DNA of 29,312 nucleotides, taken from positions 1-29,312 of IMG/VR virus record IMGVR_UViG_3300010885_019221; one strand, written 5' to 3'. Every line of letters begins with the position of its first letter. Within the stretch, counting starts at the first letter, position 1. The position numbers and the translations under genes were made by a program. Origin of the DNA: a virus. Shown here one piece after another: positions 211 to 19,057 of this stretch. The notes under the pieces are model-generated. The model saw only the letters and a program-made list of their open reading frames with translations. It was not told the origin of the DNA and searched no databases.

Positions 211-451
211 GGTAATTTAACCCCTCAAACTCACATCTAATTCCAAACGATTGAATTATTAATCTAACCTGTTGAAGATATTCCATTATAGAAATTTGTT
301 TTTCAGGACTAAAATTCATAATGACTTCTTCCTTAACTCTCAAACTAACATAATCTTTTCTTTCAACTACATCAAAAGATATACCACGGTATGGAGGTTT
401 TATCTCCCTGACTTTTCTTGCAACTTCTTTAGTGTAAGGTGATTTTGCCAT
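200..451 (-). CDS. hypothetical protein, 83 aa
   Basis: Unrecognised. The ATG at 451 follows a GAGGAAA Shine-Dalgarno with 6-nt spacing and overlaps the end of whiB by 23 bp, so translation is probably coupled. The N-terminus is basic (KSPYTKEVARKVREIKPP), the middle looks like beta strands, and a helix follows around residues 48-70. There is one cysteine. A small alpha/beta fold is plausible, but no family is recognised. Confidence 0.6.
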   Translation of the reverse strand: MAKSPYTKEVARKVREIKPPYRGISFDVVERKDYVSLRVKEEVIMNFSPEKQISIMEYLQQVRLIIQSFGIRCEFEGLNYRDN

Positions 452-794
452 GAATTTTCCTCAACTCTTTCCAAATTTCTGGGGTCTTGTGGCTATTTAA
501 ATCTTTGCTAGGTCTTCCAACATTATCTAAATACACACCTCCCCATACTCCTTGATCTTTATTCTTAACGCCTTCTTTAAAGCATTTAGCAATAACTGGA
601 CATCCTAAACAAATAGAGTCTGCTTGTTCTGCAATGACTTTATCTGATTCATATCCATCAAAGAATGGGTCGTACTTAGCAATATCTTCTAACCCACTTT
701 GTAGCATAGAACTTATAATAGTATTGCATGCTGCTAAGTGATACCACTCAACATCTTTTGGATCAAGACCCAATTGTTCAAGCAGGTTAGACAC
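429..794 (-). CDS. whiB: WhiB-family Fe-S transcriptional regulator
   Basis: WhiB-like protein of about 122 aa. Counting from the GTG at 794, the four cluster cysteines are C23, C62, C65 and C71 (C...C-x2-C-x5-C), followed by the family signature GVWGG at about residues 82-86 and a basic tail. A DPFFD stretch sits where WhiB proteins have their aromatic segment. In Actinobacteria and their phages, WhiB proteins bind a 4Fe-4S cluster and usually act by contacting sigma factor region 4; the phage version probably redirects host transcription. An ATG at 818 would extend the protein, but the GTG has GGAAGG 6 nt upstream and only an 8-bp overlap with the previous stop, so I prefer it. The family is strong evidence for an actinobacterial host. 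Confidence 0.9.
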   Translation of the reverse strand: MSNLLEQLGLDPKDVEWYHLAACNTIISSMLQSGLEDIAKYDPFFDGYESDKVIAEQADSICLGCPVIAKCFKEGVKNKDQGVWGGVYLDNVGRPSKDLNSHKTPEIWKELRKIHGKITLH

Positions 795-996
795 TCTTAA
801 CCTTCCAAGTACCCTCATGTGTTACTTTAGAGCGGAATTCAATTCCCCACTTCTCATTACGAAATACACCGTTCTTCATAGTATATCCATTTTCATTTGG
901 AATCCAACGAACAATGTCCCATCCATCCCAGAAATATCCCTTACGAGCATTATCTGTTACAAATTTATGTGCTTCTCTATAATTTAGTTCAGTCAT
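787..996 (-). CDS. hypothetical protein, 69 aa, Trp-rich
   Basis: Unrecognised small protein rich in aromatic residues, with five tryptophans including FWDGW and DIVRW. Its ATG (996-994) overlaps the TAA of the preceding 47-aa gene in a TAATG arrangement. It looks like a compact beta-rich fold of the kind seen in small phage proteins. It lies directly upstream of whiB and downstream of a strong promoter at 1146-1174, so it is probably co-transcribed with whiB. No function is assigned. Confidence 0.6.
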   Translation of the reverse strand: MTELNYREAHKFVTDNARKGYFWDGWDIVRWIPNENGYTMKNGVFRNEKWGIEFRSKVTHEGTWKVKSV

Positions 997-3332: not shown

Positions 3333-3642
3333 AGTCCCCTTCCATATCTAAAATCAAACCACTTTCTTTTAACATTTCTCTACCTTTTTCATTAATGGCA
3401 TAAAGAGGTCCATTTTCATCAAAGGCTACATCAACATAACCTAAATCAAATAGATGGTGAAGTTCTGAATCAAGATCTTCAAGGATCTGGGTGTACATAT
3501 CTGGTAAATGAATTTTCATCAGTTCCATATTGGGCTTTAGAATTCTGTCTCCAGTTTCATCCATACCAACCCATTCAAATACGCCAATATCTTCTAGTTC
3601 ACCGATCATTTGATCAATTTCATCTTCGTAATCGTTTTCCAT
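3313..3642 (-). CDS. hypothetical acidic protein, 109 aa
   Basis: Unrecognised, highly acidic (EDEIDQMIGELEDIGVFEW at the start). Residues about 30-75 look helical, followed by DVAFDENGPLYAINEKGREMLKE, a beta-hairpin and helix reminiscent of the wing region of winged-helix proteins. A DNA-mimic or small regulator is conceivable but only a guess. An AGGAG Shine-Dalgarno lies 10 nt before the ATG, inside the 3' trailer of the tmRNA, so the transcript may run through the tmRNA and be released by processing. Its end overlaps the thioredoxin start. Confidence 0.6.
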   Translation of the reverse strand: MENDYEDEIDQMIGELEDIGVFEWVGMDETGDRILKPNMELMKIHLPDMYTQILEDLDSELHHLFDLGYVDVAFDENGPLYAINEKGREMLKESGLILDMEGDYDEGTI

Positions 3643-3652
3643 ATTTCTCCTG

Positions 3653-3938
3653 TGGAGTAGACGGGAATCGAACCCGTGTCCATCTTATATTCCATTATAC
3701 AGTATTACAGCAATAATTGTCTAGCATTTTCTTGCAATTTTCTTACATACACGACTTTCTGTTCCTAAGTTGTCGTCACTCGGCATATTAAGCAGTTACT
3801 AATGAATTAGAAACAAAACGCTTAACTGCGGAAGCAGTCATAGAGATTGCATTTATTTTTTTTAGATCGTTTAACAAGTCTATCTAACTTGTGCTGCTGT
3901 AGTAATTTCCTACTAAAATGTCGAAGCCTTTCTACCCC
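3653..3938 (-). ncRNA. ssrA: tmRNA (ssrA), phage-encoded
   Basis: Transfer-messenger RNA, which rescues stalled ribosomes and tags the nascent peptide for proteolysis. The 5' end GGGGTAG (3938-3932) pairs with CTACTCC (3660-3654); GGCTTCGAC follows the 5' strand as in other tmRNAs, and the 3' end has the T arm CACGGGTTCGATTCCCGT. The CCA is not fully encoded. The tag frame most likely resumes at GCA (3850) and reads AISMTASAVKRFVSNSLVTA, then TAA at 3790-3788. The 20-residue tag ends LVTA and not the usual LAA. Length is about 286 nt, short but within the known range. A GC-rich hairpin sits 10 nt before the 5' end, and the gene lies between the secreted transglycosylase and an acidic gene, all on the same strand. 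Confidence 0.88.
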
Positions 3939-9764: not shown

Positions 9765-10043
9765 TTAATTATCAAATACTTTAGTGAATGAATCAATTTT
9801 ATCATTGATACTTTTTAATCTTTTCTTAAGATTAGAATTCTCTGTCTTATAGTTTTGTAACTGATTCTTTAAAAATTGATTTTCTTTAAAAGTAATTGAA
9901 AGCACTTCTGATGTCTTTTCATTTAGTTTTTTTTCAATCTCAATTATAGAAACAAGGCATTTATAAAGTTTAGTGAAATGCTTAATTGCAAAAACATGTA
10001 TTAAAATTGTTACACTAATTAGACTTACTACTAGTACTTCCAT
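9765..10043 (-). CDS. membrane-anchored coiled-coil protein, 92 aa
   Basis: Residues 1-22 are hydrophobic (MEVLVVSLISVTILIHVFAI), then HFTKLYK and a long Lys/Glu/Asn-rich helix from about 35 to 90, with heptad-like spacing typical of coiled coils. The N-terminal segment acts as a membrane anchor and the helix would extend on one side. Spanin-like, holin-associated or tail chaperone roles are possible, none shown. It is the first gene after the structured RNA, with a GAGGT Shine-Dalgarno 5 nt before the ATG, so the RNA lies in its leader. Confidence 0.6.
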   Translation of the reverse strand: MEVLVVSLISVTILIHVFAIKHFTKLYKCLVSIIEIEKKLNEKTSEVLSITFKENQFLKNQLQNYKTENSNLKKRLKSINDKIDSFTKVFDN

Positions 10044-10063: not shown

Positions 10064-10178
10064 GTGGTAGATATTCACCTTGTGTCCCCTGCACTGAAAG
10101 CGTAGAATCTTCTAACGCCATTCAACTGGACTCGTAATATGTAACTATTCCACCCTAAGATAAGAATATCTACCACTA
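10064..10178 (-). ncRNA. structured RNA of unknown family beside terL
   Basis: About 115 nt. A perfect 13-bp terminal helix (10176-10164 with 10076-10064) extends by 5 more pairs (AUCUU with AAGGU, past a UU bulge). The interior holds a clear hairpin (GCG-UAGA with UCUA-CGC, one bulge) and a possible GUCC/GGAC helix, giving a rod with a branched head. The promoter at 10185-10213 places the predicted start at about 10178, so the 5' end lies at the base of the helix. No T loop or U tract, and no match to a family I know. It may be a free small RNA or the leader of the gene at 9765-10043. It sits between terL and that gene. Confidence 0.7.
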
Positions 10179-10184
10179 TCTTCT

Positions 10185-10213
10185 ATTGTATTAAATAACC
10201 CTTAAATTGTCAA
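10185..10213 (-). promoter_or_regulatory. strong promoter for the structured RNA
   Basis: -35 TTGACA (10213-10208, full consensus), 17-bp spacer, -10 TACAAT (10190-10185). The predicted start at about 10178 is the beginning of the terminal helix. The -35 and most of the spacer lie in the last codons of terL. Confidence 0.85.
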
Positions 10214-11999
10214 GCGCACTTGCAAGTTCTTCTGGCATAGATCTTTTAGGAGCATCAATTACTCCAGGATTTTGCCTAACATACTTTTCTCTTTCTTTCA
10301 AAATCTCATCTCTATGCATACTAGAATATGTATGGATTTTAACTTCTCTGTCCCCTTTAGTAGTTCTAGAAATAGCATTATATATTGCTCCACAAACAGC
10401 ATCCGCAAGGTCTTTAGAACCCTTTCTTGGGTGATCAACCTTATCACGAACAATTCTAAGTTGCAACAACTCATCAACTAATAACTTAATTGCTGGACCA
10501 TTTACACGCTCTTCAGTCACAAGCATAGCCATATCTTCATAGTGCTTCTTTGCAACAGATAACAACTCAGTATTAATTCCATGAGCCTTAAGTTGTTGCA
10601 TCATATCATGTGAATTCCAACGGTCAAATGTAACCATTTTCAGTCTAAATCCACGCTCACGAAGATGAATTATATAATCTTTAACTTCAGTAAAGTCTAC
10701 AGACTTAGTTGATGTTGGTGTCCAGAACATGACTGCATCTACTACTACTCTAGGAGCAGCATCTGTCATTGTTCCCGCAATTTTCATGCTTACCCAAGAT
10801 TCAACATGCGCTAGTGCAACAGCACAATGGTCATGCTTCTGAGCAAGGTCGACATGTATAAAGTATTCTTTATCCTCATCTGGCTTGAACCATTCAGCAA
10901 ATCTTCCATTTTCTCCAACTGCAATGTCAGATCTGTTAAATGCCATCTCAACTTTTTCACGAGACTTAAAGAAAGCATCTACTGCTTCTGGAGGCATACA
11001 GGCAAAGCGTGACAGTGCATCTACTGGATCGGTATAGAAATCTACGGTAAAATCTTCAATGTGCCTTGTAGGATTAATTTCCCATGTGGGTCTCTTTAGG
11101 GCAAACACTCTAGGAACAGAGTAAGCATTGATATGATCTTCTTCCCATTCAACTGTAAATTTATTTTCTTCAATGTCATCTGGAAGTTCTGGATCAATCT
11201 TGAATTCATGGCTTCTAGTAATTACTTCCTTACTTGCAACTACATCGTTATAACGCTGCTGGATATAGTCATTCTTGAAGCGAGGAAATGAAAGAAGAAT
11301 AATCTTTCCAAAGTCTGGGAAGCGGGATGCAACAGATGCACGATACATCTTGTAAATAGCACTAGCAGTCTTAGCCTGTTCATGTCCCGATGTTGATTCA
11401 AGTTCAAAACCTGAAATCTCATCAAGGATAACTACAAGCACATTGTATCCTTCCCAAGATTCTCTCTGGGAGTGACCTGAGTGAACTGTAATGCCTTTAT
11501 CGAACTCTACGCTAGATGCTTTAGCAAAATATTTTCCCTGAAACCAAGGGGATTTATCAATACGAGTTGTGAAGCCCTTAAAGAAAACTCGTTTTGCCTG
11601 TTCAGCGTTAATAGCAATATTAAGAATATCAATAGCGTCACCTGGAGGCTTGCCATAATATTTTGCTGGATCTTTTAAGGACAAAAGTAAATAAACAATA
11701 TAAGCACAAGCAATAGTTGATGTATAGTCCTTACCAGAACCTTTTCCTAATTGAAGGATTACTTCATTACAGGTTTGTTTCCATCTTTTTGCTGCTTCCT
11801 CTTCATCAAAGAGTTGTTGTAATGTATCTTTACGATAGATTTGTGTCATAGCACGAATCATTGTATATTGATATTCAGACAATGGAGGAAGTCCTAGATA
11901 ATGCTCATCAACAACGAATTGTTCAATTGTTACAGGCTTCTCTTCAAATAAGTCCCCGCTAAGGACTTCCATAAAGTCGGAAAAATCAATATCAGACAT
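10191..11999 (-). CDS. terL: terminase large subunit
   Basis: 602 aa, the DNA-packaging motor and headful nuclease. The ATPase half has Walker A GKGSGKD (about 85-91) and Walker B VVILDE (189-194) followed by SG, as in terminases. The nuclease half has HVDLAQKHDHCA (D384), TFDRWNS (457-463) and KDLADA near residue 530, the three RNase-H-like acidic positions. The length is normal. It acts at the portal with the small subunit. Its start overlaps the end of the small-subunit gene by 8 bp. The final codons carry the promoter of the structured RNA. Confidence 0.95.
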   Translation of the reverse strand: MSDIDFSDFMEVLSGDLFEEKPVTIEQFVVDEHYLGLPPLSEYQYTMIRAMTQIYRKDTLQQLFDEEEAAKRWKQTCNEVILQLGKGSGKDYTSTIACAYIVYLLLSLKDPAKYYGKPPGDAIDILNIAINAEQAKRVFFKGFTTRIDKSPWFQGKYFAKASSVEFDKGITVHSGHSQRESWEGYNVLVVILDEISGFELESTSGHEQAKTASAIYKMYRASVASRFPDFGKIILLSFPRFKNDYIQQRYNDVVASKEVITRSHEFKIDPELPDDIEENKFTVEWEEDHINAYSVPRVFALKRPTWEINPTRHIEDFTVDFYTDPVDALSRFACMPPEAVDAFFKSREKVEMAFNRSDIAVGENGRFAEWFKPDEDKEYFIHVDLAQKHDHCAVALAHVESWVSMKIAGTMTDAAPRVVVDAVMFWTPTSTKSVDFTEVKDYIIHLRERGFRLKMVTFDRWNSHDMMQQLKAHGINTELLSVAKKHYEDMAMLVTEERVNGPAIKLLVDELLQLRIVRDKVDHPRKGSKDLADAVCGAIYNAISRTTKGDREVKIHTYSSMHRDEILKEREKYVRQNPGVIDAPKRSMPEELASALDNLRVI

Positions 12000-14333: not shown

Positions 14334-14981
14334 TTACCAATCCCAAATATCTTTAGTCTCATCATTAAATGGTCTTTCAAATACCTCTTGTCCAGGTTGA
14401 CCGCCCCATTTACGAATAAAATACTCTCTAAGTTGTCCAAATTGTTCACCACTGCAGTTAGGATTTGCTGGATCAGCATTTTGAGTAGCAGAACCAACAT
14501 GCCAAGCAACAGCATGTCTAGCAACATACCCTTTTGCTCCCACTAAATTCATTCTCCTATGCATGTCATTATCCTCAAAATACGCTGGGAAAAAGTTTTC
14601 ATCAAAGGATCCACAATTATTAATTAATTTTGGAATATTAATTCCGAAACAGAAGAAGTCTGCTCCAGGAACATATCTTTCATCTCCCTTAAACCACATA
14701 TTTTGATTCGCTGATACCAATGTTGCATCAGTTTCTTTTAAAATACTATAAATTTCTTCAATAGCACCTTTCTCAAAGGTTACATCATCATTAGTAATAA
14801 TTGCATATTCATATCCGTCTGCTAAAGCCCTACGCATACCTTCGTTCCATGCACCAGAAACACCTGTATTATGAACATAATTATCAATTACATATGGTCT
14901 AACATCACAATCAACTGAATACATTAAACGAGTAAATAAATCAAATCTACTAAGTACTGGAATAATTAAAGCGATTGTCAT
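14334..14981 (-). CDS. glycosyltransferase, GT-A fold (family 2-like)
   Basis: 215 aa from the ATG at 14981, which overlaps the dehydratase stop (ATGA); an upstream ATG at 14993 would only lengthen the overlap. ALIIPVLSR begins the fold, SGAWNEGMRRAL is the usual helix after a sugar-nucleotide loop, ITNDDVTF is the DxD-type motif, and FFPAYFEDNDMHRRMNL is the acceptor region (EDxD), typical of GT2 enzymes. There is no membrane segment, so it acts in the cytosol. Donor and acceptor cannot be read. It is the last gene of the sugar cassette. Confidence 0.85.
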   Translation of the reverse strand: MTIALIIPVLSRFDLFTRLMYSVDCDVRPYVIDNYVHNTGVSGAWNEGMRRALADGYEYAIITNDDVTFEKGAIEEIYSILKETDATLVSANQNMWFKGDERYVPGADFFCFGINIPKLINNCGSFDENFFPAYFEDNDMHRRMNLVGAKGYVARHAVAWHVGSATQNADPANPNCSGEQFGQLREYFIRKWGGQPGQEVFERPFNDETKDIWDW

Positions 14982-15988
14982 AGGTTTAACCATTCTGGAT
15001 TAGCCATTGTCCATTCAACAGTTTTTTGGATAGATTCCTTTAAAGGAATTGGCAACTTCCAACCTGTATCGGTAATTTTTTTACCATCAAGCGCATAGCG
15101 GAGATCGTGCCCTGGGCGAGAGGAATGGAAGTCTTCTAGTTCATAATTAAGTGGTTTTCCTACTGCTTCTGCAATCATTTGAGCCATCTCAAGATTATCT
15201 ACTTCACGCTCACCTACAATATGAAAACGCTCTGGCATATCTGCTTCTCCGTAAAGAGGAAAATGTTGATTAAGAACATGAAGTAATCCATCAGCCTGAT
15301 TTCTAGCGTGTAAATAGAATCTACTACCAACTTGACCCTCTGGAGAAGCATGAATCTTCATCAGATCTCCATTGATAACCTTTTTAATTACCATTGGCAT
15401 AAATTTTTCTGGATCTTGAGTTTCACCAATAATATTCATTGTATTAGTAATAGCCAAAGGTATTCCGTATGTGCGCCAGTACGAGAATGCAATATCCTCC
15501 TGCGCTGCTTTAGAAGCAGAATAAGGATTACTTGGGAAATGCTGATCTACCCATTCACGATGTGCATAACCTGCTGGGGCTGGACCGTATACCTCATCAG
15601 TTGATACCTGCAAAAACTTTTCTGGCTGTGCAATTCTAGCCCAATCAAGTAAGTGACACATCAGAGAGACATTATTTATAATAAACGGAGCAGGATACTC
15701 AATGCTACGATCTACATGACTTTCTGATGCAACATTAATTACATAATCAATTTTACCAAATTCATTAGCAGTAACTGCTGAAATTGGTGCGGTAAAGTCA
15801 CATCTAAGCACCTTAATACGCTTATAAGCATCTGGAATATCATCACAGGCTACCCGAATTCTATCTGTAAGCCCCTTATGGGTAAATGTTGTTGGGCATA
15901 CTACAAACCAATCTGTATTGACAAGGATATGTCGTAGCACATGGCTTCCAACAAATCCTGATGCACCTGTTAAAAGTACTCTTTTCAC
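14978..15988 (-). CDS. rmlB: dTDP-glucose 4,6-dehydratase-like (RmlB family)
   Basis: 336 aa from a GTG at 15988; a longer frame begins at a TTG at 16000 but GGAG lies 6 nt before the GTG, and the GTG overlaps the previous stop. Short-chain dehydrogenase fold: GASGFVGSH NAD-binding turn, STDEVYG with the active-site Asp and Glu, YSASK (YxxxK), and a C-terminal SRPGHDLRYALDGKKI close to RmlB's DRPGHDxRYA. Such enzymes convert NDP-glucose to NDP-4-keto-6-deoxyglucose. Together with a DegT aminotransferase and a GNAT, it fits a pathway to an acetylated amino-6-deoxy sugar. Confidence 0.85.
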   Translation of the reverse strand: MKRVLLTGASGFVGSHVLRHILVNTDWFVVCPTTFTHKGLTDRIRVACDDIPDAYKRIKVLRCDFTAPISAVTANEFGKIDYVINVASESHVDRSIEYPAPFIINNVSLMCHLLDWARIAQPEKFLQVSTDEVYGPAPAGYAHREWVDQHFPSNPYSASKAAQEDIAFSYWRTYGIPLAITNTMNIIGETQDPEKFMPMVIKKVINGDLMKIHASPEGQVGSRFYLHARNQADGLLHVLNQHFPLYGEADMPERFHIVGEREVDNLEMAQMIAEAVGKPLNYELEDFHSSRPGHDLRYALDGKKITDTGWKLPIPLKESIQKTVEWTMANPEWLNL

Positions 15989-17064
15989 TAAATTCTCCAA
16001 TTCTTTATTATACTAATAATACTATTTATTTCTTTATCTGTCAACCACCAGCCGACAGGAATATTTAATTGATTTTTATTAAAATGATTTAATCCTAAGA
16101 GTTCTTCTTCCTTGAAGTTAATCATACAGGTATTTTGATCATTTCTATGATGGGCTGGGCTAGAAACAACATCATTGTCAGAAAGATATTTGATAAACTC
16201 ATCCCTATCTATCCCATTAAGAACAATAGGAAATATCCAGTATGAACATGTTTCATCAAATGGGATAACTGTTATATGTTCTAAGTTTGAAAGTTCTTCG
16301 CAAAACTTTTTAGCATTTATTCTACTTTTATTTACAGAGTCATTTGCCAACTTAACATTTGCCAGACCAATAGATGCAGATACATCATTCATATGATACT
16401 TAAATCCAGCCCTCTTGATATCTTGTTTATACCTAAAACTTTCATTGCTAGTTCTATCTAATCCAAACCACCTTAAATTTCTAGCCTCTTTGTCTTTATC
16501 TTCAGGACATATTAATGCCCCTCCATCTGATGTAGTTAAAAATTTAATGGCTTGAAAACTATAGCAAATATAGTCTCCACGCTCAACATTTTCTGGAAGG
16601 CTACCCCAACAATGTGCTGCATCCTCAATGACTGGAATACCAAAAGATTTTAACTCTTTATAATCAGGTAATCTTCCAGCCCAATCCACAGCAATAATAG
16701 CCTTAGTTTTTTCTGTAATTAATTTTTTAACACTATTAATATCAATTAATCCAGTTACTGGGTCTACATCAGCCCATCTGATTTTTGCTCCACGATGAAT
16801 TGCTCCAATTTGTGTGGCAAAGCAGGTCATTGGTGTTGAAATTACTTCATCTCCAGGGTTAACATTACATAATTCTACTGCTAAATCAATAGCACTTGTT
16901 CCAGAATTAACTGTAACGGGTCTTGTTTTTGTTTTAAGAGTTTCCCAAAGTAGATCTTCAAATTCTTCTACTTTTTCTCCTTGAGCAACATACCCAGATT
17001 TTAAGACGGGGGAAATGAAATCCACGACATCATCTGACATAGTTACTTTAAATAAATCTATCAT
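15988..17064 (-). CDS. DegT/DnrJ/EryC1 sugar aminotransferase
   Basis: 358 aa PLP enzyme of the DegT class. TVNSGTSAIDLA is the cofactor phosphate region, VIEDAAH (about 146-151) the aspartate contact, and CYSFQAIKFLTTSDGGAL holds the Schiff-base K174. The substrate would be a keto sugar nucleotide, such as the product of the RmlB-like enzyme. The start overlaps the glycosyltransferase stop (ATGA) and the stop abuts the dehydratase start. A TTGACA-N17-TATTAT promoter sits in its last codons. Glutamate or glutamine as amino donor is expected from the family. Confidence 0.9.
   Translation of the reverse strand: MIDLFKVTMSDDVVDFISPVLKSGYVAQGEKVEEFEDLLWETLKTKTRPVTVNSGTSAIDLAVELCNVNPGDEVISTPMTCFATQIGAIHRGAKIRWADVDPVTGLIDINSVKKLITEKTKAIIAVDWAGRLPDYKELKSFGIPVIEDAAHCWGSLPENVERGDYICYSFQAIKFLTTSDGGALICPEDKDKEARNLRWFGLDRTSNESFRYKQDIKRAGFKYHMNDVSASIGLANVKLANDSVNKSRINAKKFCEELSNLEHITVIPFDETCSYWIFPIVLNGIDRDEFIKYLSDNDVVSSPAHHRNDQNTCMINFKEEELLGLNHFNKNQLNIPVGWWLTDKEINSIISIIKNWRI
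16016..16044 (-). promoter_or_regulatory. probable promoter of the dehydratase gene, inside the aminotransferase gene
   Basis: -35 TTGACA (16044-16039), 17-bp spacer, -10 TATTAT (16021-16016). It lies in the codons for WWLTDKEINS near the end of the aminotransferase gene. The start would be near 16009, giving a leader of about 21 nt with GGAG. No extended -10 is present. Confidence 0.5.
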
Positions 17065-17771
17065 GTTATATCCTTTATATCATACAGGTCATGGTTTCTA
17101 TTTCCCATTTGGTCAAAATGTACACCTTTATACTGTGCAATTGTACCATTATAAGTACAATTACCAAAAGCAAAGAACATAGAGTTGTAAATTGCTGCAT
17201 CTAAATCTGTAGTCTTTGGTGCAGGAAAAATAATATTATTTTCCTTAACTTTATTAATTCTCCATGAAACTTGACTAGCATCTACATTGCAAACTGGATT
17301 TATTTCTTCTGTTTTGTTTAAGGGAGAATTTTTATTTAAACTTAAAGACTCAAAATTCGTAAAACTATTAGGATCAAAAACTGAAACATGACCATAAGAA
17401 TAATTAACTAATTCATTAACAGAATAATATTCAACTAATTTTTCTAAATATTCTGGGTATAATGCATCATCATCACATAGCATTATTGCTATATCAGCAT
17501 CTGAGTCATACAAGGCTTCATTCCAAAATGTTCCAAACATGCTGCCACCATTATTAATTTTATCTTCAGGTGTGTCGTGTGTATTATAAAATTTAATTTT
17601 TTCTAAATCATCTGATAAAATAGTCTTAACTATTTCTTCTCCAGACATCACGCTTCCATCATCTACAAAGGCAAGTTCCCAATTTTTATATGATTGATTC
17701 TTAATTGATATTAAAGGAATTTCAACCATCTTGGGTCTATTACAATAAGCCATTAAAATTAATATTTTCAT
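17061..17771 (-). CDS. glycosyltransferase family 2-like
   Basis: 236 aa. ILILMAYCNRPKM begins the fold, ISIKNQSYKNWELAFVDDGS (with the family's VDDGS near residue 38) binds the nucleotide, and IMLCDDDALYPEYLEKLVEY supplies the metal-binding aspartates. No membrane segment. GT2 enzymes make beta-linked sugar chains on surface polymers or on protein. Start and stop couple with the flanking genes (TAATG and ATGA), in the middle of the sugar cassette. Acceptor unknown. Confidence 0.85.
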   Translation of the reverse strand: MKILILMAYCNRPKMVEIPLISIKNQSYKNWELAFVDDGSVMSGEEIVKTILSDDLEKIKFYNTHDTPEDKINNGGSMFGTFWNEALYDSDADIAIMLCDDDALYPEYLEKLVEYYSVNELVNYSYGHVSVFDPNSFTNFESLSLNKNSPLNKTEEINPVCNVDASQVSWRINKVKENNIIFPAPKTTDLDAAIYNSMFFAFGNCTYNGTIAQYKGVHFDQMGNRNHDLYDIKDIT

Positions 17772-18460
17772 TATTCTGCCCTTATCGGTTCTATTGGGGC
17801 TTTTATTTGTCCCCCATAAGTAATAATTTCAGAATTAAAATTTAAGAAAGGTTTTTCAAATTCCTCTGAAAGTTCTGTTAGTTTTAAGCCCAAAGAATCG
17901 AATAGGGATAGAAAATTTACTTGAGACATTTCCGCATGACCATAACTATCTCCAGAATTTACATCAAAGACTCTACCATAAACTTCAAAAACTTTTTTAG
18001 CATTATTCCCAGGAAGTAATCCATTAGATATTGCTGCATGTAATGGACTTAAAAATAGTTTTGTGCAAACAAAGGATGTATCTTCTTTTACTTGATTGAT
18101 AAATGGAGTGTAAAAATCTTTTCTAGATGGAACATAATCATCTTCAATTAAAAAACTATAGTCATATTGATTAAAAATATTTAACATAAGGGCATGATTC
18201 CATCCTCCGTATGAATATCCAGAATTTTCTCTAAACATTGTCTCAACAGGAATATTTAATGTATATTCAGAAATTATTTGTTTTACATCCACCTCATCGT
18301 GAGTACTAGAAACATTAATAACTAGAGTTGCGTGGATAGGGGAATCACTATCTAGACTTTGTAAAAAATCAAGGTGCTTTTTTAAAAAGTAATGCTTATC
18401 TTGAAGGTTATTTATTCTCCTCTGCCCAAAATAAAAAACTGGTATATAGTTAACTTTCAT
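17771..18460 (-). CDS. glycosyltransferase-like protein
   Basis: 229 aa. Features of a GT-A fold: NINVSSTHDEVD after the first strand, RENSGYSYGGWNHAL (the loop-helix seen in GT2/GT-A enzymes), then SFLIEDDYVPSRKDF as a DxD-type motif. The C-terminal half is less like known enzymes. It could also be a related sugar-binding protein. It is the second gene of the sugar cassette after the acetyltransferase, with an 11-bp overlap. Function is inferred from the neighbours. Confidence 0.6.
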   Translation of the reverse strand: MKVNYIPVFYFGQRRINNLQDKHYFLKKHLDFLQSLDSDSPIHATLVINVSSTHDEVDVKQIISEYTLNIPVETMFRENSGYSYGGWNHALMLNIFNQYDYSFLIEDDYVPSRKDFYTPFINQVKEDTSFVCTKLFLSPLHAAISNGLLPGNNAKKVFEVYGRVFDVNSGDSYGHAEMSQVNFLSLFDSLGLKLTELSEEFEKPFLNFNSEIITYGGQIKAPIEPIRAE

Positions 18461-18896
18461 TTTCCCTTTTCATAAAATAAAGACTATCTGATTCTGCAGT
18501 CACAACAAACCCCATTTTTTCATATAGTTTAAAGGCTCTTGTATTTGTCTTTAAAACTTCTAACTTAATTTCTTTTTTCAGTTTATTTGACTCTAAACAT
18601 AAAGAGTTAAAAAGATTATACCCCAACCCCTTGTTGCGAAAATTTTCTATAAGTCCACCAGTTAATAAGCAATAATCTGATTCAATCCTAATTATTCCAT
18701 ATCCAATTTTATCTGTATCTTGCAGGAAAAGATATGGAATAAGTTTAGTTTTATCAATACTATTATACCACCTTTTTTGTTCCTCTGCCGTAATCACATT
18801 ATTATTTCTAGTCATAAAGTCACGACATTGATTTCTAATTAATCTTAAATCCTCAATGTCAGATAACTGAACCTCTATAAGAGAATAGGAAGTCAT
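18450..18896 (-). CDS. GNAT-family N-acetyltransferase
   Basis: 148 aa from the ATG at 18896, which overlaps the HTH gene stop (ATGA); a GTG three codons upstream is possible. The acetyl-CoA loop FRNKGLGYNLF fits the R/Q-x-x-G-x-G/A motif and ends before a helix; the segment KTNTRAFKLYEKMGFVV is the typical C-terminal hallmark. ITAEEQKRWYNS at the N-terminus is similar to acetyltransferases acting on amino sugars (PseH/WecD type). It probably acetylates the amino group made by the DegT-type enzyme; that is inference from context. Confidence 0.8.
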   Translation of the reverse strand: MTSYSLIEVQLSDIEDLRLIRNQCRDFMTRNNNVITAEEQKRWYNSIDKTKLIPYLFLQDTDKIGYGIIRIESDYCLLTGGLIENFRNKGLGYNLFNSLCLESNKLKKEIKLEVLKTNTRAFKLYEKMGFVVTAESDSLYFMKRENES

Positions 18897-19057
18897 TTTG
18901 TCCACTTTCTTTGATTCTTAATTAAACCATATTTTTCTAAAGCCCTTTGAATAGTCATATGACTACATCCAGCCTCTTTAGCCATGTCAATAACTGTCTT
19001 TTTTTCATTTACATATCGTTTAACTAACCATAATTTTGAATCGTATAACTTACTCAT
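18893..19057 (-). CDS. small HTH DNA-binding protein, 54 aa, leaderless
   Basis: MSKLYDSKLWLVKRYVNEKKTVIDMAKEAGCSHMTIQRALEKYGLIK shows a helix-turn-helix: TVIDMAKEAGC, then SHMTIQRALEKYG as recognition helix, like homeodomain-like HTH proteins. It probably regulates the cassette after it. ATG (19057) lies exactly 6 nt after a TACAAT box without Shine-Dalgarno, so it is leaderless. Its stop overlaps the GNAT start (ATGA). It was too short to be caught by a simple length filter but the promoter and coupling support it. Confidence 0.75.
   Translation of the reverse strand: MSKLYDSKLWLVKRYVNEKKTVIDMAKEAGCSHMTIQRALEKYGLIKNQRKWTK

Follow-up and report, generated by a model that had tools for sequence, protein, structure and literature searches.

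A small RNA family of actinobacterial viruses with two segments antisense to 23S rRNA, a candidate means of acting on the host ribosome

The stretch of viral DNA analysed here (29,312 nt, referred to in full as the window) carries on its minus strand an RNA element of 113 nt at positions 10064-10176, which belongs to a group of related elements that we call family A. Its upstream neighbour is the terminase large subunit gene (10191-11999, minus strand), recognised by PHROG terminase matches and by 63-65% identity to the terminases of Streptomyces phages; by this protein, these members of the Stanwilliamsviridae are the closest relatives in culture. The downstream neighbour is an open reading frame (9765-10043, minus strand) for a 92-aa protein with an N-terminal hydrophobic stretch and a coiled coil, which matched no PHROG family and gave one Pfam match below the cut-off; the gap of 20 nt between the element and this small gene, described in the initial annotation, was confirmed. 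From the phage kinship and a WhiB-like gene we infer an actinobacterial host. This WhiB-like regulator gene (429-818, minus strand) was recognised by eye and supports such a host, and a cluster at 14334-18905 (minus strand) looks sugar-related by eye, with epimerase/dehydratase-, aminotransferase-, glycosyltransferase- and acetyltransferase-like genes. The window also holds a complete phage-borne tmRNA gene (3650-3938, minus strand), whose tag peptide AISMTASAVKRFVSNSLVTA ends in VTA and not in the usual LAA.

The element is closed by a perfect 13-bp helix (GUGGUAGAUAUUC/GAAUAUCUACCAC at 10176-10164 and 10076-10064) around a branched interior, as had been described from the sequence before; we name this terminal helix P1, with the 5' strand GTGGTAGATATTC at 10164-10176 and the 3' strand GAATATCTACCAC at 10064-10076, both on the minus strand. 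Folding of the bare element gave -35.9 kcal/mol and a z-score of -3.77, a value equalled by 0 of 200 shuffles, and inclusion of the promoter stretch gave z=-2.68. The plus strand of the element also folds (z=-4.16) because the ends of the element are palindromic, and the minus strand was chosen since the promoter lies there and since neighbouring tRNAs in homologues have the same orientation. The predicted sigma-70-type promoter TTGACA-N17-TACAAT was found where it had been claimed, at 10213-10185 on the minus strand, and agrees with the consensus at 11 of 12 positions; from its position the RNA is expected to start at about 10176-10178, near the first base of the helix. No terminator was seen 3' of the element in the window. 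The five further pairs proposed to extend the helix are present in the minimum-energy fold, but they are absent from the 11 homologues that were folded and use conserved bases of motif 1 (see below), so that an extension as a conserved helix is not supported.

In agreement with the initial annotation, neither ARAGORN nor Rfam recognised tRNA or tmRNA features over the element, and no Rfam family covered it at the gathering threshold or at a permissive E of up to 10. Ten homologous loci searched against Rfam at E up to 2 also gave no match, nor did a DNA similarity search of annotated phages with the whole element. Homologues were collected by fetching phage contigs with related terminases and scanning them for a conserved core, and a covariance model made from 38 elements gave, among 91 sources, 59 matches in actinophage contigs; the match in the window (10177-10063) scored 47.5 bits with E=1.3e-9. 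The dozens of homologues, about 80-130 nt in size, have little in common beyond the core, and nearly all of them are closed by a helix of 11-16 bp. The 13-bp helix clearly exceeds what chance would give, since under an identical search 52 of the 59 homologous loci had a helix that scored 27 or more, compared to 4 of 1,500 random positions. The covariance check proposed earlier for this helix revealed compensatory changes throughout: all 12 modelled pairs vary on both sides, and 98.3% of the cells are paired. The covariation score was 0.904, while shuffling gave 0.311 +/- 0.016 and sliding of the partners no more than 0.144; the underlying alignment was fitted to the helix, and pair types counted directly from the element ends agree with it. 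RNAalifold on a plain MAFFT alignment found no pairs, the 3' strands being misaligned, and the covariance model was used instead.

The element was seen in 28 of 80 terminase loci, many of which are fragments, and an additional search (R1) gave no further copies in the remaining ones. No close motif match was found in the cultured relatives Phredrick, Jay2Jay and Angela (Streptomyces phages) or in two T4-like cyanophages and RB18. A motif scan of bacterial genomes gave one match, in an Acidimicrobiales MAG, which we judged to be due to chance since it lies at what are apparently two gene ends and has no evident terminal helix. The permissive scan pattern CTTAGGAN{1,4}TATAGTTAC had chance coding matches among those listed, and its counts were not used as statistics. 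One divergent member (L036:6382-6508) combines CTTAGGAACATGGATATAGTTAC with GACGCCATTCATAGCAG, a motif 2 of nearly full length, and has its own -10 box upstream.

While the window and some relatives, such as L001-L003, carry the element beside the terminase gene, many actinobacterial viruses carry one copy of it, usually within a tRNA gene cluster. Of 52 distinct elements, 34 have a tRNA whose 3' end lies 0-2 nt before the helix, and 34 have the next tRNA at most 30 nt (mostly 2-10 nt) past their own end. In most elements that do not follow a tRNA, a -10 box precedes the helix by 6-10 nt, often with a TTGACA about 17 nt away. Both arrangements would place the 5' end of the RNA at the base of the helix. 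In 14 of 31 whole phage records, among them several of 100-150 kb, a single copy of the motif was present, while a reversed control pattern was absent from these 31 records. Taken together, the compensatory changes in the helix and the tRNA processing context support well one option of the initial annotation, a free small RNA, and the promoters and positions between tRNAs would fit a discrete transcript made from its own promoter or excised from a tRNA operon. A different RNA-like element was noticed between two tRNA-Pro genes of Streptomyces phage Phredrick (L259:5121-5304); it is closed by TGTGGAATC/GATTCCACA, has no 23S motif and perhaps represents another class of structured RNA in phage tRNA arrays.

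The only invariant sequence of the family is CUUAGGRUG..AUAGUUAC, with a nearly invariant core CUUAGGRUG-N-(U)AUAGUUAC, a feature that had been overlooked in the first reading of the locus. This core is the reverse complement of the loop, the 3' arm and the 3' flank of helix 69 in actinomycete-type 23S rRNA (GUAACUAUAACCAUCCUAAG), i.e. of the helix 69 loop and 3' arm and the CCUAAG that follows. In the window this motif 1 (CUUAGGGUGGAAUAGUUAC, 10141-10159, minus strand) is antisense to 23S rRNA positions 1910-1929 (E. coli numbering); 18 of its 19 bases can pair, with -23.3 kcal/mol, while 300 shuffled cores reached on average -16.6 and at best -23.0 kcal/mol at their best sites anywhere on 23S rRNA. 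Whole-element duplex energies against 23S rRNA were rejected as uninformative, since shuffled elements predict equally good long duplexes, and complementarity was measured by the pile-up of complementary runs and by local-alignment profiles in their place. Runs of at least 8 nt cover 23S positions 1910-1917 in 36 of 39 elements and positions 1921-1929 in 28 of 39, compared to 7 of 39 for the next best 23S site. By simple counting, the chance that about 16 fixed bases match one place in about 9 kb of rRNA strands is about 1e-5. The complementarity looked for in an rRNA-directed antisense RNA was thus found to be extended and statistically significant. Family A avoids full complementarity over the 20 nt and usually leaves a 1-nt bulge at 1918-1921. 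It fits the CA-type of 23S rRNA, one of two types, CA and GG, that both occur in the phylum; since the scan pattern for family A contained RTG, this fit was partly built in, and more independent support comes from a scan for the GG type and from elements with swapped motif order.

The second scan searched for the form fitting GG-type 23S rRNA, whose helix arm has GG where the other type has CA, and returned 40 loci, of which only L168 was identified as rDNA. Outside rDNA, the antisense sequence CUUAGGACYGUUAUAGUUAC occurs, perfect or with G.U pairs tolerated, in the 3'UTRs of capsid genes and in other late operons. At most GG-type loci CUUAGGAC[U/C]GUUAUAGUUAC lies 1-10 nt past the stop codon of a gene for a protein of about 350 aa and is followed by a terminator; at one locus this protein is a relative of the Streptomyces phage major capsid protein. 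The hairpin in these 3'UTRs has the loop UUAUAGUUAC and the outer arm CUUAGGA. Its middle bases covary with its own 3' arm and not with 23S rRNA, and C-to-U changes that preserve G.U pairing with 23S rRNA are common. Hairpins followed by a terminator directly after the gene for the protein of about 350 aa, which was major-capsid-like where tested, were seen at L132:1866-1885, L133:1201-1220, L187:1196-1215, L206:1869-1888 and in relatives, and may possibly give rise to 3'UTR-derived small RNAs of other phages. In head operons of the T4 type (L148:2288-2307, L164:10667-10686, L191:8640-8659 and L218 near the core) the motif precedes a terminator-like hairpin. In the loop of that hairpin lies (U)UCGCUAC, which is complementary to the stretch GUAGCGAA that comes right after helix 69 in 23S rRNA. 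Other GG-type loci lie between terminase and portal-like genes. A profile on the flanks of loci outside family A was discarded because a Salmonella rDNA locus was among the set. We treat the GG-type hairpins, which comprise few loci, as putative analogues of family A, and we lean towards the view that several unrelated phage lineages independently evolved small antisense RNAs against the region of helices 69-71 in 23S rRNA. Such RNAs would form a natural class of viral RNAs that target the ribosome by directly seizing the large subunit of the host.

A second segment of family A, around GUGCAG, is antisense to 23S positions of about 1955-1979 (GUUACGCCAUUCGUGCAGGUCGGAA), comprising helix 71 and the strand after it. 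In the window this motif 2 (UACGCUUUCAGUGCAGG, 10088-10104, minus strand) aligns with small gaps to positions 1961-1977. Local alignment to 23S rRNA of 16 non-redundant element interiors, with the core removed, gave a strongest common site that peaked at position 1962 with a score of 33, while sense, reversed and complement controls reached at most 16. In 200 dinucleotide shuffles the score was 12.5 +/- 2.9 with a maximum of 25, so that 0 of 200 were as high as 33. Most long members show GUGC(AG) at motif 2 with ragged extensions, and the pairing with 23S rRNA is gapped; the 80-nt forms L031, L071, L089 and L105 have little of motif 2. L180 and L213 carry, directly upstream of a tRNA-Asn, an element of 101 nt whose 13-bp helix is unrelated and in which motif 2 is placed 5' of motif 1, and the best site for the segment before their core, in all of 23S rRNA, is again 1979-1962. 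Such a swapped order is predicted by two independent rRNA contacts and not by simple descent. L177 looks like a second swapped case, with GUGCAG before the core around 3466-3484; like L180 and L213 it would be a circular permutation closed by an unrelated terminal helix.

Both target stretches lie in domain IV at the subunit interface. Helix 69 forms a main bridge to the 30S subunit. Based on these complementarities, we think it rather probable that the RNA acts in trans and controls translation by pairing with the 23S rRNA of host 50S subunits that are free or under assembly. The RNA, started from its own promoter or excised from a tRNA operon and with its ends locked by the covarying helix, would offer two segments, unpaired or in hairpin loops, to two stretches of 23S rRNA that lie close together. 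The hairpin loop of the RNA would first touch the loop of helix 69 on such a 50S subunit, and pairing would then extend to the 3' flank and to positions 1955-1979. As an outcome, formation of 70S ribosomes (bridge B2a) or maturation of 50S subunits could be blocked or delayed during infection. In B. subtilis, methylation of helix 69 is required for proper 70S assembly (PMC12805891), and a synthetic PNA against helix 69 inhibits growth of E. coli, according to the account of Kulik et al. (2017) given in a review (PMC7038079). Given the helix-69 bridge, the need for its methylation and the inhibition by PNA, a contact with the 50S subunit would be the simplest mechanism. The RNA family, its helix, its genomic setting and the statistically strong complementarity at two sites are shown by the present data, while we infer expression, actual pairing and the effect on the ribosome from sequence comparisons; least certain of all is the direction in which the ribosome would be affected.

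In the 70S ribosome helix 69 is buried, and it is modified, which counts against the pairing model. The incomplete complementarity of motif 1, the gapped pairing of motif 2, the 80-nt forms with little of motif 2 and the lack of the motif in the three Streptomyces phages point in the same direction. In addition, a plain inhibitor would not be obviously useful since phages need ribosomes. The main rival is therefore a protective or reserve-keeping role, in which the RNA pairs with 23S rRNA without inhibiting translation and shields helix 69-71 from a host nuclease or toxin, reserves 50S subunits or helps rRNA to fold. The same complementarity speaks for this reading, as do the need of the phage for working ribosomes to survive and the location of the element near genes that support translation, namely the tRNA genes in homologues and the tmRNA gene in the window. 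However, no toxin or nuclease partner that would fit a shielding role was identified, and a duplex of 20 bp over helix 69 is hard to square with an active 70S ribosome, and we consider a non-inhibitory role unlikely. It is quite improbable that the conserved hairpin is a binding signal for a host or phage protein and matches 23S rRNA by coincidence or as a by-product. The hairpin CUUAGGA-loop-UCCUAAG is indeed conserved beyond the needs of its own pairing, and in the capsid 3'UTRs the middle bases follow self-pairing. On the other hand, such a signal would not account for about 16 fixed bases that match a single 20-nt stretch of 23S rRNA, for a second segment that independently picks the neighbouring stretch, for an exchangeable order of the two motifs, or for the frequent C-to-U changes by which G.U pairing with 23S rRNA is kept.

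Further options raised for the locus gain little from the homologues, whose neighbours vary, which argues against both a gene leader and a tie to packaging. A cis-acting leader of the downstream gene (riboswitch or attenuator) would suit the position 20 nt before a start codon and the missing terminator in the window, but the next feature is a tRNA in most homologues and the downstream genes differ, making this option very improbable. A packaging RNA like the phi29 pRNA, which the element resembles as a phage RNA with paired ends and, in the window and in relatives such as L001-L003, with a packaging gene close by, or a 6S-like decoy of RNA polymerase, is hardly credible, since neither Rfam family was matched, most copies reside in tRNA arrays and not beside a terminase gene, and the element was seen in only about a third of the terminase loci, many of which are fragments.

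Pairing of family A with 23S rRNA on the 50S subunit, the reading we prefer, would resemble the action of trans-acting antisense RNAs of bacteria and plasmids, such as the kissing hairpins of RNAI/RNAII, in that a hairpin loop and arm are complementary to a target hairpin and that the small RNA would be a discrete one with its own, here predicted, promoter. While RNAI/RNAII-type RNAs target an mRNA or a replication primer, family A would target 23S rRNA at two separate sites and is placed in tRNA operons. The helix-69 PNA oligomers share the rRNA target and antisense pairing with family A, but they are synthetic growth inhibitors and not natural RNAs. The C/D and H/ACA guide RNAs known from archaea and eukaryotes are likewise small and structured, and parts of them are complementary to rRNA. 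No C/D or H/ACA boxes were recognised in the element, no guide RNA family matched the transcribed strand, and the only Rfam match was below threshold (16.2 vs 40 bits) and on the opposite strand; to our knowledge, bacteria do not have the partner enzymes of these guides. GOLLD and ROOL are structured non-coding RNAs that also accompany tRNA genes of phages, yet they are several hundred nt long and form large homo-oligomers, whereas family A RNAs are far shorter and have no Rfam match.

The RNA thus belongs to no family tested, and for its proposed target we found no natural precedent. Among open-access papers, which are weak evidence in this respect, none reported a phage RNA paired with 23S rRNA or helix 69, and the ways known to us by which phages control host translation involve proteins, tRNAs or tRNA cleavage. 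The family probably represents an unreported phage tool that acts on the host ribosome. Since the sequence itself gives the target site and the mismatches and shows which mutations would compensate, the proposal is directly testable. If it is true, phages would take over the host in a new way, through an RNA that base-pairs with the part of 23S rRNA that bears the heaviest functional load, and this would help to account for the non-coding gaps in phage tRNA arrays. The RNA would then also be a design, shaped by natural selection, for antisense agents against the bacterial ribosome.
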